The position numbers and the translations under genes are program-made. Shown piece by piece: positions 53,896 through 59,642 of a stretch of 64,000 bases of DNA; position 1 is the first letter of the stretch, and every line of letters starts with the position of its first letter. Where the stretch lies: assembly GCA_016214905.1 (NCBI GenBank), contig JACRMQ010000007.1, positions 186,001 through 250,000 on the forward strand. Reading direction: 5' to 3'. Source of the stretch: Ignavibacteriales bacterium. GTDB taxonomy: Bacteria > Bacteroidota > Ignavibacteria > UBA10030 > SZUA-254. The notes beneath the pieces were generated by a model. It saw nothing but the letters and a program-made list of their open reading frames with translations. It did no database searches and was not told the DNA's origin.

Positions 53896-53957
53896 CTTCG
53901 CTCGCGGTATTCCGCTCGAAGAGTGGGACGAGCGAATGGTTGCGGCTGTTATGTGCC
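53896..53957. repeat. attC-like half site and nested hairpin at the 3' end of the HEPN-like gene
   Basis: On the plus strand TTCGCTCG (53896 onward) pairs with CGAGCGAA and encloses the small hairpins CGG-TATT-CCG and CTC-GAA-GAG. GTTGC-GGCT-GTTATGTGCC at 53939-53957 follows. The same core, with a different 4-nt spacer, lies inverted at 54568-54586 on the other side of the gene. The stop codon of the HEPN-like gene (TAA) lies in the core, as RYYYAAC boxes often do in integron cassettes. No GTT-type box is seen on its far side, so the site would be incomplete. Confidence 0.45.
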
Positions 53958-54572
53958 GTGTCGTAAACTGCCCTCAATTTCACACTCGACTTGTTTCTCC
54001 AATCGATCTAGAAGCTGCGAACTGACAGTTGAATCCGCAGATAGACTATAGATTAGCCAATCGTTTGTCGCCATCCTGCGCTTTGTGGGAGAGACAGTTT
54101 TCGCATCTGTCGGGATGGGGTAACGCCCTGCCCACAACACAAACTGCTCGAGTCTTTCAAGCAGTTCCTTCTCGTCCGAAGACAACGAGAAATTGATTTC
54201 CGATATTAGGCCCAGCAAGTCATGCCTCTTGAGCCGTTTCAGCTTACCGTTCTCAGTAACACGTGGATGGTGAATGACTGAAATCGCCTTAGCATAGTTC
54301 TCGATTGCATATCCAACCAAGAGCAAATAGATTGGGCCGATCTTTGGTTTCAGACAATCATCCTTTTCTGGGCGACCACTCGGTGGTTCGCCGTCAAAAT
54401 GAGGTCTGAGAATTGATGCTCCCTGCCTAAGCGATCTTGCATAGCCCAACCAATGCCTTGGATCGGAGGCGGCCGATTCATATATCCGTCGGAAGAGATT
54501 TGCGGTGATCTCTTCACCTTCCTTTTCGGTTTCTGCTTGCGTCTTGATCATAAAGTCACACCGGCATGGCAC
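53949..54572 (-). CDS. HEPN-like protein of unknown function
   Basis: The 207-residue protein (ATG 54572; ATG 54551, MIKTQAETEKEGEE, is also possible) is mostly alpha-helical. YLLLVGYAIENYAKAI followed by KLKRLKRHDLLGLI resembles the substrate- or partner-binding helices of HEPN-type proteins, and LFQFVLWAGRYPIP-like EQFVLWAGRYPIPTDA is seen in similar uncharacterised proteins. A clear RX4-6H nuclease motif cannot be assigned with confidence. The base composition looks richer in GC than its neighbours. It is flanked by inverted attC-like cores, so it may be a mobile gene cassette. Downstream of the repeat protein gene, with a 120-bp gap. Confidence 0.55.
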   Translation of the reverse strand: MPCRCDFMIKTQAETEKEGEEITANLFRRIYESAASDPRHWLGYARSLRQGASILRPHFDGEPPSGRPEKDDCLKPKIGPIYLLLVGYAIENYAKAISVIHHPRVTENGKLKRLKRHDLLGLISEINFSLSSDEKELLERLEQFVLWAGRYPIPTDAKTVSPTKRRMATNDWLIYSLSADSTVSSQLLDRLEKQVECEIEGSLRHGT

Positions 54573-54708
54573 ATAACGTGTGCAACAAAAATGCTGTTGC
54601 GAAGCGAACTCTTATTGACGAATTTCTTGTGAGTGTAGCAATAGTTCATTTTACATTTTTGTTGCTTTTAGTTGCAGTTGCCCATTTTCAATTTATAACT
54701 TGTTAGAT
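54568..54708. repeat. Candidate attC-like recombination site between the repeat protein and the HEPN-like gene
   Basis: Read on the minus strand, the site begins with ATCTAAC (54702-54708), a perfect RYYYAAC box overlapping the last codons of the upstream gene, and ends with GTTGC-ACAC-GTTATGTGCC (54568-54586). Inside, GCAACAAAAATG and CATTTTTGTTGC form a perfect 12-bp inverted repeat. The R/L-box spacing at one end (about 4 nt) suits attC; at the other end the inner box is farther away than usual, so the call is tentative. Confidence 0.45.
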
Positions 54709-56933: not shown

Positions 56934-56975
56934 ACTATTCCTCTTGTTCTAAGGGCAATTGCAACTAACGTTGCG

Positions 56976-57035
56976 CGGGAAAAACGAAGTGGGCGGACGA
57001 GTCGAAGACTCGGACGAACATTGGAGTTTTTCCCG
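56976..57035. repeat. Nested-hairpin element C (57.0 kb)
   Basis: A perfect 10-bp closing stem CGGGAAAAAC/GTTTTTCCCG encloses the perfect hairpin CGAGTC-GAA-GACTCG (56998-57012). GC-rich compared with its surroundings. About 20 bases nearer the repeat-protein gene, GTTAGTTGC on the minus strand (with GCGCAAC before it) resembles an attC right box. Confidence 0.7.
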
Positions 57036-57045
57036 ATGATGGGCG

Positions 57046-57167
57046 ACGTTCGCGGAGCGAACGGCTCTTCGCCCATCGAGGGCGTAGCCCGCGCAACGAT
57101 GCGCAAACGTTCGCGGAGCGAACGGCTCTTCGCCCATCGAGGGCGTAGCCCGCGCAACGATGCGCAA
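57046..57167. repeat. 61-bp direct tandem duplication of a palindrome-rich unit
   Basis: Two back-to-back copies (57046-57106 and 57107-57167), apparently identical. Each holds the hairpins CGTTCGC-GGA-GCGAACG and GGGC-GTA-GCCC plus GCCC-ATCGA-GGGC. Open frames across it on both strands are artefacts of the repeat. Confidence 0.85.
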
Positions 57168-57210
57168 CGCTTTGAGCGAAGCACGAAGTGCGGAGCGAAT
57201 GTTGCGCATC
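57159..57210. repeat. Nested-hairpin element D (57.2 kb)
   Basis: A perfect 10-bp closing stem GATGCGCAAC/GTTGCGCATC encloses CGC-TTTGA-GCG and GCAC-GAA-GTGC (57181-57191). It begins in the last bases of the second 61-bp copy. Confidence 0.7.
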
Positions 57211-57558
57211 ATCTGTAATTACGCAATATTGCGTTGTTCTCGTTTTTAGTTTTTGCTTGTTTAAGCAGTTTTTGTGTTTCATTTGATATTTTATATTCGT
57301 CTTTCATGCAAGCTCATCATCATACTCACGCACTCTAAATATCCCTATATCAACTTCCACTGCGCGCGAGTTCTCTCAATATCTACCCATCTCTTCGTGA
57401 TGTTTAAATTAGGGAACATTCTTCAAAGAGTCAAGCAAATTATCTTCTCTCAACACTAGACTTTCATCTTTTTTATTACCATATCTGCATAACCGTCTCC
57501 CATTAAAAGGTACCGCGTGTACATAAGCGGTGCTTAAGTTTATTTATTGGCAATAATG
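57211..57558. other. Non-coding stretch with little recognisable content
   Basis: About 350 AT-rich bases with no supported gene. The only structure is the perfect 14-bp palindrome ACGCAATATTGCGT at 57221-57234. Short open frames lack family signals and ribosome sites. Confidence 0.5.
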
Positions 57559-57578
57559 CTTAAAATGTACATTTTAAG
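57559..57578. repeat. Perfect 20-bp palindrome (half-site CTTAAAATGT)
   Basis: A fully symmetrical 20-bp sequence without a spacer, ending four bases before the 21-bp repeat array. It could be an operator or a recombination landmark. Confidence 0.6.
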
Positions 57579-57582
57579 GGGA

Positions 57583-57959
57583 AATACGGTTTACATATTC
57601 AATCGGAGAGTTCTAACTTCCAACCGGTGCTCTTTCAGAAGCTGTGCGGGACTCCCCATTTTGAATATGTAAGTTAGCACTTACTGTCTGCAACTTCCCA
57701 GATTCAATTCGGGACTTTCCACTTTCAATATGCACGGGTTATCGCGCCGCCGTACACTTTCCAGATACAATTTGTAACATCGCACTTTAGATCTGCAACT
57801 CCCCAAATTCAATCCGCAACTCCGCACCGAGAATACGGGACTATACGGCGGAATCTGCAGGTTCGCACTTTCAATTCGGGGAGTTGCACTTTCAATCTGC
57901 AAACTCGCACCTGGCAAGTGCCCACTTGCACTTTCTGTTCGGGGAGTGTATGGTGACAG
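57583..57959. repeat. Array of about 18 degenerate 21-bp tandem units
   Basis: On the plus strand units end mostly in CAAT or CTGT, for example CTGCAACTTCCCAGATTCAAT (21 nt, split here as 57688-57708). All units are 21 bp except one of 20 (57835-57854). On the minus strand a unit reads like ATTGAAAGTGCGAAxTTGCAG, that is heptads IESAxLQ. The 20-bp unit breaks the frame, and two short minus-strand open frames cover the two halves. No start signal or family supports a gene. Confidence 0.75.
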
Positions 57960-58105
57960 CGATAATTACCCCGATACCTTCTGCGTTTACCCGCACGGGA
58001 GGTGCGCACTGTATCCTGCTTGATGGGAAACCCACGCCGTTAATTGGAGACACCGCTACTGCGAATACATGCTGGGAGTGGCTGACCAATAAGTAAGATT
58101 TAGGT

Positions 58106-58199
58106 GGTAGTCGCAACCTTTTGGTTGAGTTTCTGCTATGCTTTCGCAGACATTCCGCCAAAGGCGGATGAGCCTATGGCTCAAAAGTCTGCGGCTACC
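58106..58199. repeat. Nested-hairpin element E with four internal hairpins (58.1 kb)
   Basis: A closing stem GGTAGTCGCA/TGCGGCTACC (one G-T pair in ten) encloses, in order, AACC-TTTT-GGTT (58115-58126), TCTGC/GCAGA (58132-58150), CCGCC-AAA-GGCGG (58155-58167) and TGAGCC-TAT-GGCTCA (58169-58183). GAGCC/GGCTC also occurs in element B. Confidence 0.75.
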
Positions 58200-58508: not shown

Positions 58509-59642
58509 TTACTTCATCAAAATTAATTTCTTTGTCTCACTGTATTTACCCGCGTGAATTCTATAGTAATAAACTCCGCTTGGTAAATTGCTTGCATCCC
58601 ATTTCACATTATAAGTGCCCGGATTCAACATCTCGTTCACTAAGGTTTCAACTTCCCTTCCCAATGCATCGTAAATCTTTAGAATTGTCAATTGACAATT
58701 GCCGATTGTAAATTGACAATTTGTAACGGGGTTGAACGGGTTCGGGTAATTCTGTTCCAGCGAAAATTGTTTCGGCTGAGATTTATATTCGGTTGCAACA
58801 TTTGTTACCGCTTGCGCGTCGAGCCATGCGCTGTACCACAAAAATGCAATTGCGACTGTGGCTGTTTGAATCCGTTCACGCGTAAAGCGTTGGGTTTTAT
58901 CCCAAAGCGCGGCGTAATATTCTGCCGGCGGTGTTCCGCTGCCGCTCCAGCCCGAAATATTTTTCGCGTAAGTGTCGGCTATTAAAACAGAATCTACCAA
59001 TGCCTGCGATTGCAGTATCAACTCGAATGAATAATCGAGAGGAAAATAAATATACCGCGCGCTGTCCTGAGAAATTGTCAGCAATGACTGATACGCTGTA
59101 ATCATCCCCGTTTCATATCGGTTGTGGATGCCGTTGTTGCCTGTTAAAAATCCGTCGTAGTTTTCGGTGCAATGCAGCGGTTGTGTTGCATCGGCAATAT
59201 AATGACCTAAATCGCTCATCGTCGATTCTGCTTTAATGTAATCTTTACGAATGAATTGTGATCTGAGAGAATCGAGAGTAAGAACGATTGCCCACGGCAG
59301 CGTTCCTGTTTCACGAACGTATGATCGCCCATAAAGCGCGATCATTGAATCGAGGTTGTGCGGAATTGTTTTAAAATTCGGATAGACATCGATATCTATA
59401 TAGTGCCGTTTATCTTCGGCAAAGAATGATGTGTCTGTGTAATCTTTTCTGTAGTCGGGCGCGGAAGCATACGAACGGTAAAACAAACTGTCTTTCTTCA
59501 GATCAGCCATTGTTTCAGGCAAATGTATCGGCGTTTTCAGGTTTATTAACCTATGTCCGGTTGAACCCCAGCTTAATGCAAAGTTATGAATTAAGAATAA
59601 GATCGGGATGCATCGCAGCGCGACGCGGAAAAATTTTAACAT
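58509..59642 (-). CDS. Secreted phospholipase C/S1-P1 nuclease-like enzyme with type IX secretion C-terminal domain
   Basis: The 377-residue protein has a signal peptide ending ALSWGSTGHRLIN, where Trp and His near the mature N-terminus are zinc ligands in this superfamily. DLGHYIADATQPLHCTENYDG and NGIHNRYETGMI supply the other His and Asp ligands. Residues from about 297 (FSLEQNYPNPFNPVT) form a T9SS type A sorting domain ending SETKKLILMK. It should cleave phosphodiesters outside the cell. Between NPFNPVT and LKIYDALGREV there is an insert NCQFTIGNCQLTI encoded by two 21-nt repeats (58684-58725). Confidence 0.85.
   Translation of the reverse strand: MLKFFRVALRCIPILFLIHNFALSWGSTGHRLINLKTPIHLPETMADLKKDSLFYRSYASAPDYRKDYTDTSFFAEDKRHYIDIDVYPNFKTIPHNLDSMIALYGRSYVRETGTLPWAIVLTLDSLRSQFIRKDYIKAESTMSDLGHYIADATQPLHCTENYDGFLTGNNGIHNRYETGMITAYQSLLTISQDSARYIYFPLDYSFELILQSQALVDSVLIADTYAKNISGWSGSGTPPAEYYAALWDKTQRFTRERIQTATVAIAFLWYSAWLDAQAVTNVATEYKSQPKQFSLEQNYPNPFNPVTNCQFTIGNCQLTILKIYDALGREVETLVNEMLNPGTYNVKWDASNLPSGVYYYRIHAGKYSETKKLILMK
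58684..58725. repeat. Two 21-bp repeats inserted in the T9SS domain
   Basis: Units 58684-58704 and 58705-58725 match at most positions; the first holds the 14-bp palindrome TTGTCAATTGACAA. They encode NCQFTIG and NCQLTIL in the C-terminal sorting domain. The 21-bp size equals that of the array at 57.6-57.96 kb. Confidence 0.75.

Follow-up and report, generated by a model that had tools for sequence, protein, structure and literature searches.

Arrays of diverged units on a 21-bp step upstream of integron-like platforms in an Ignavibacteriales genome

Why should a tandem array keep its step almost to the base while its units have drifted until they are only ~41% alike? The question is raised by an array in the window (the whole 64,000-nucleotide stretch analysed here, positions 186,001 to 250,000 of contig JACRMQ010000007.1 of an Ignavibacteriales bacterium), in which a sequence-only reading had counted about 18 units of 21 bp, one of them of 20 bp. 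That count is right, 377 being 18 x 21 - 1, with the 20-bp unit placed by eye near 57828-57869 and the ends of the array fuzzy by ~20 bp. The autocorrelation of 57583-57959 that had been suggested as a check peaks at lag 21, and again at lags 42 and 63, far above shuffles: identity at lag 21 is 0.413 vs a shuffle mean of 0.251 (z 6.8; reached by none of 2000 dinucleotide shuffles), lags 42 and 63 give z 7.7 and 8.0, the neighbouring lags 20 and 22 give z -0.1 and 1.6, and the top value over lags 5-69 is 0.449 vs a maximum of 0.347 among 500 shuffles. There is also a weaker 7-bp sub-period (lag 7 z 3.9, 0/2000). Tandem Repeats Finder, the other check proposed, does not list the array at score 30, as is expected of units so little alike; the 21-bp step is nonetheless plain from autocorrelation. 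Folded as DNA, the array scores z -1.5 for the plus strand and -2.3 for the minus strand, which is the promoter orientation; for each strand, 4 of 100 shuffles do as well.

Does the array stand alone? At least 17 arrays make up its family, 10 of them in the same genome (G000), six in G001, the only other genome of the genus searched, and one in G006, which belongs to another genus of the family. Three families of units, A, B and C (the window array being B), look unrelated, and all keep 21 bp; profile comparison found no resemblance of type B to A or C (p 0.06-0.98). Type-A arrays (n=12) have a constant core, TT|RCGACRA..C, and a variable remainder; core and terminal units are held in common, the rest differs, and the vocabulary of units is common to both species. 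A search of 20 genomes with the window array gave matches in its own genome only, where the type-B copies are, besides the window, C7:31060-31369 (90%) and C4:157899-158275 (79%, full length, no indel). The piece common to these copies is window 57286-58063, its ends being known as limits of similarity. The left flank alone (57286-57582), searched against the same genome at E <= 1e-3, found 10 places, eight of which adjoin a 21-bp array and two of which (C7:552k and C7:1260k) have none; five of the eight arrays were new, with quite different units and a much higher self-identity (comb score 0.67-0.77 vs 0.47). An even 400-kb sample of the genome added one further strong array, C6:176k. In that sample, 11 short-period segments exceeded the threshold, 9 of them with period 7, and degenerate 7-bp intergenic tracts were seen at L106:7071, L110:12811, L125:5671 and elsewhere. 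The C6:176k array, which is of type A, lies upstream of a SocA/Panacea-domain gene and a gene for a 1594-aa DUF4011-helicase-nuclease protein (L117:6500-13476, that is, G000:C6:176.5-183.5k), the latter matching the PADLOC candidate defence model PDC-S37 with 1749 bits.

Beyond this genome, the end of the type-A array was modelled from five sequences, and this model (R1) was run over 98 genomes of the order. It returned the five training loci, C5:182k in the window's own genome and six arrays in G001, together with one weak match in each of four other genomes; the two of these that were examined (L128, L129) are not arrays, and the census leaves out the other two (L130, L131). This search covers type A only, under stricter filters, and may have passed over arrays of types B and C in other genomes. 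The G006 array lies upstream of an integrase (sequence JAGVIE010000027, 'Bacteroidetes bacterium isolate DeMMO2_4'); read in register its spacing is about 20-22 and not strictly 21, a CAATG-like core returning roughly every 21 bp between diverged spacers. Among 21-bp signals near distant integrases, L150 is one short stretch and L154 and L156 look like protein-coding or AT-rich repeats, and none of the three was counted as an array; the one contig of the viral collection that matched a type-A pattern carries a coding repeat there. The plasmid and phage records searched gave no match to the array.

What do these arrays stand next to? A promoter and leader lie just downstream, in the same orientation, at all members except C6:176k, G001:C48 and G006. 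The association is biased, because the first eight arrays came from the leader search; among the eight found without recourse to leader or integrase, six have the same arrangement. The distance from array to promoter is 70-193 bp, with rough ends. On the minus strand of the window the order is array, transition, promoter, leader with mini-ORF, attI-like site and cassettes (Table 1). A consensus promoter scan does not list the promoter-like hexamers. The mini-ORF resembles the C-terminal tail (KDEHKI..TQKLLK) of an integrase encoded at C1:164.7k, so the window platform looks like the same platform with its integrase gene lost. The attC-like site folds no better than its shuffles (z -0.55 and -0.31), with the arms present, and the second cassette gene has no Pfam or PADLOC match. 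Further repeats are found close by: an exact 61-bp tandem duplication (x2) at window 57046-57167 in the GC-rich segment, with related sequence behind the integrase at L038; a short dispersed repeat (GACCAATAAGTAAGATTTAGGTGGTAG) at window 58080-58110, copies of which, inverted with respect to the array, also lie near those at C1:163.9k, C4:111.4k and C6:764.1k; and a 7-bp repeat, AATTGAC, at window 58683-58721, within the C-terminal part of a 377-aa gene (NCQFTIGNCQLTI).

Table 1. Features of the array and its platform in the window
Feature	Position	Strand	Basis or remark
Flank common only to the two other type-B copies (C7:31k, C4:158k)	57960..58063	-	
21-bp array, type B, 18 units (one of 20 bp)	57583..57959	-	Autocorrelation, other copies, unit profile
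Array-promoter transition	57441..57582	-	Alignment; copies 86.5-89.4% identical
Promoter-like hexamers TTGACT - 17 bp - TAATTT	57406..57434	-	Read in sequence; recur at 14/17 arrays
Conserved leader, dispersed repeat	57286..57405	-	Search of own genome
32-codon mini-ORF MKDEYKI..ETQKLLK..	57209..57307	-	Stop overlaps attI-like site
attI-like site CGCAATATTGCGTAATTACAGATG	57210..57233	-	Exact match; control pattern 0 in 98 genomes
GC-rich ORF-less segment after attI-like site	56949..57208	-	Also behind integrase locus
First cassette gene, 746 aa	54693..56933	-	Weak HEAT-like repeats, below Pfam cut-off
attC-like site: 12-13-bp arms and GTTATGTGC box	54561..54692	-	Read in sequence; arms appear in folds
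Second cassette gene, 207 aa, then truncated attC (GGCACATAACAGCC)	53949..54572	-	

How far is such a platform an integron? The leader at C1:164.7k continues into the gene of a tyrosine recombinase of 308 aa, for which integron integrase is the best-matching family; the recombinase scores 245 bits against TIGR02249 (the IntI subfamily), below the cut-off of 265, and 230 bits against XerA_Arch, above the cut-off of 220. Its alignment to IntI4 (2a3v) skips ~40 residues (query 188-212 vs chain 177-241), a stretch which we take to be the IntI-specific insert between the catalytic patches and which this integrase lacks. Because the integrase falls below the IntI cut-off and is without these residues, the platform is called integron-like. 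The recombinase is present in 33 of the 98 genomes and the attI-like site in 10, the control pattern matching nowhere; in six genomes the putative attI lies beside the integrase, 27-101 bp after it. Behind C1:164.7k, a cassette segment (L038:4640-4762) folds as an attC on the bottom strand (z -2.7). At G001:C8, the orthologous locus, no alignment to the cassette region is seen, which bears on cassette recombination only indirectly.

The sequence-only reading had taken a kept period in diverged sequence as a sign of selection on length, and this is supported by the type-B copies. The arrays of the window and C4:158k differ by 80 substitutions and 0 indels; they are 79% identical between flanks that are 89-96% identical, so that the array diverges faster, through substitutions alone. 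Against C7:31k there are 32 substitutions and a single indel, of 42 bp (two units). In orthologous non-coding DNA of G000 and G001 near the window, 591 aligned bases hold 12 indels and 93 substitutions (coding DNA: 7 indels, 1430 substitutions). One indel per 7.8 non-coding substitutions leads one to expect ~10.3 indels per 80, and the Poisson probability of seeing none is ~3e-5, a figure that comes from a small non-coding sample and from arrays that are paralogues, not orthologues. No slip was found in any of the eight own-genome arrays fitted, by a fit that penalises slips and passes over the 20-bp unit of the window.

In the sister species, G001:C8 shows synteny with window 44-64 kb to either side of the array, over 5281 bp at 86.8% on one side and, past the cassettes, over 4290 bp at 83.8% plus two shorter blocks on the other. 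It retains the promoter and leader as well (194 bp, 81%), but its array is of type A, not B. C4:158k and G001:C15 likewise carry B vs A as judged from the upstream side, the alignment downstream being limited to promoter and leader. C6:374k and G001:C10 are syntenic on both sides and have one unit block in common, G001:C10 carrying in addition a block of the kind seen at C6:765k. An unrelated array with an equal 21-base step thus occupies the same place in the sister species, which suggests that the step counts for more than the letters. Whole arrays could come to differ at orthologous loci through exchange between platforms or through fast turnover in place; the evidence favours exchange, because a type-B piece with its flanks is spread over three loci. 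The special copying mechanism that had been suggested for the array survives in part, in another sense, in that inner units turn over whole and the array differs at the orthologous locus.

What could the array be for? We give about even credence to its being a non-coding multi-site element, constrained in phase and exchangeable, that lies upstream of the platform promoter and probably serves to bind protein. It would offer many equally spaced sites to one cooperatively binding protein, and the bound protein would act on the platform promoter through regulation or chromatin architecture. Evenly spaced sites for a cooperative protein would make the gain or loss of a base a target of selection, and the sequence of the units would meanwhile change by turnover of whole units within an array and by exchange of whole arrays among dispersed platforms. 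The 21 bp may represent a step of 3 x 7 bp, not two turns of the helix, because the composition of the arrays has a 7-bp and no 10.5-bp rhythm: in nine representatives, AT/GC power along the unit profile is highest at 7 bp (six of the nine have the type-A core in common, and so are not independent), and helical phasing by composition was rejected, the 10.5-bp rhythm being absent (p 0.95). It is possible rather than probable that what is selected is rhythm and not sequence, the array being a swappable module of this genus's integron-like platforms, constant in its 21-bp (3 x 7) step alone, with one unit family taking the place of another at a given locus. Against the multi-site element stand the two arrays without a platform leader (C6:176k and G001:C48) and the two leader places without an array; moreover, most integrase or attI loci in relatives are without an array, so integrons of this kind manage without one.

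The main rival, which we hold to be somewhat unlikely, is a functionless, neutral minisatellite that hitch-hikes with dispersed copies of the platform; since slippage adds or removes whole units, the period would be inherited and not selected. The type-A arrays look much as this would predict, their inner units (9-22 in number) being homogenised locus by locus between conserved terminal units and arranged in block mosaics, and so do the two-unit indel among the type-B copies and the degenerate 7-bp tracts elsewhere in the genome. Slippage does not, however, purge indels of 1-3 bp from diverged units, where none was seen and ~10 were expected, nor does it put arrays that are unrelated but equal in step at corresponding places in sister species. 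Neutral turnover is thus an explanation of how whole units come and go, and not of the missing small indels or the unrelated arrays of equal step. Might the units instead be arm-type or DR-like sites that bind the integrase, for recombination or autoregulation? At two loci an integrase adjoins the array, several types of unit contain ATTGC/GCAAT strings similar to the attI palindrome, and attI is matched more closely by 5 of 15 unit consensuses than by shuffles (p < 0.05); the other 10, type-B units included, show no such resemblance, some arrays occur without a platform, and array-free integrase loci are the rule (2 of 30 have an array). The resemblance not being general, we set this proposal aside as improbable. 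A heptad-repeat protein, living or decayed, is the least probable of all, for although 21 bp make seven codons, indels are few, and plus-strand ORFs of 119 and 136 aa run through the C7:31k and C4:158k arrays, the IESAxLQ heptads visible on the minus strand are interrupted by stops, all six frames of the window array are broken, 8 of the 17 arrays are without a stop-free frame, substitutions show no codon-position bias against C4:158k (22/28/26) and an excess on second positions of the plus-strand frame against C7:31k (7/16/8), no frame is kept open with a synonymous bias, and no Pfam or NCBIfam family matches (one hit, DUF6193, lies below cut-off at E 0.12). Stops and codon positions likewise exclude coding as the cause of the missing indels. 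An Rfam scan gave three weak matches, none reaching its gathering score, and hence no known RNA family.

Copying slippage is the usual explanation of tandem arrays, and sequence that of upstream control regions; here, unrelated arrays that keep an equal step at orthologous loci, and a pair of copies with 80 substitutions but without an indel, allow selection on spacing to be told apart from selection on letters. The findings also point to integron-like platforms at many loci and without integrases, in a little-studied lineage of bacteria; the integrase of this lineage scores under the curated cut-off for integron integrases. A literature search of titles and abstract starts found no report of tandem arrays upstream of integron platforms, and in the literature searched there was no link of arrays to an integron-like platform, no period locked over unrelated families and no account of differing arrays at orthologous loci. 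As described in the available part of the report on Treponema chromosomal integrons, whose integrase is transcribed towards attI, these resemble the present platforms in running from integrase through attI to cassettes in a single direction, and a 21-bp array upstream is not mentioned in that part (PMC3607928); unlike them, the integrase here is without the ~40-residue IntI4 insert, and several platforms in the genome have no integrase. The heptanucleotide repeats TAACTGA of Beggiatoaceae, Cyanobacteria and Bacteroidetes, for which binding of a regulator has been proposed, are likewise direct repeats on a 7-bp step in intergenic DNA upstream of genes, and their indels come in steps of 7 nt; going by the portion of the source at hand, they consist of one fixed heptamer near start codons, whereas the present units are of 21 bp, change in sequence and lie upstream of a promoter (PMC4679880). 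The closest known system is BrickBuilt of Porphyromonas gingivalis, which the accessible part of its description presents as a dispersed intergenic element with a 23-nt tandem minisatellite and promoter activity (PMC4596501). Both systems are dispersed and combine a minisatellite core of conserved and variable unit columns with a conserved leader and tail on either side. BrickBuilt, however, has one unit family, 0-11% mismatch within an element and inverted-repeat ends, whereas the arrays described here comprise three unrelated families, with units down to ~41% alike, a period of 21 and an integron-like platform downstream.
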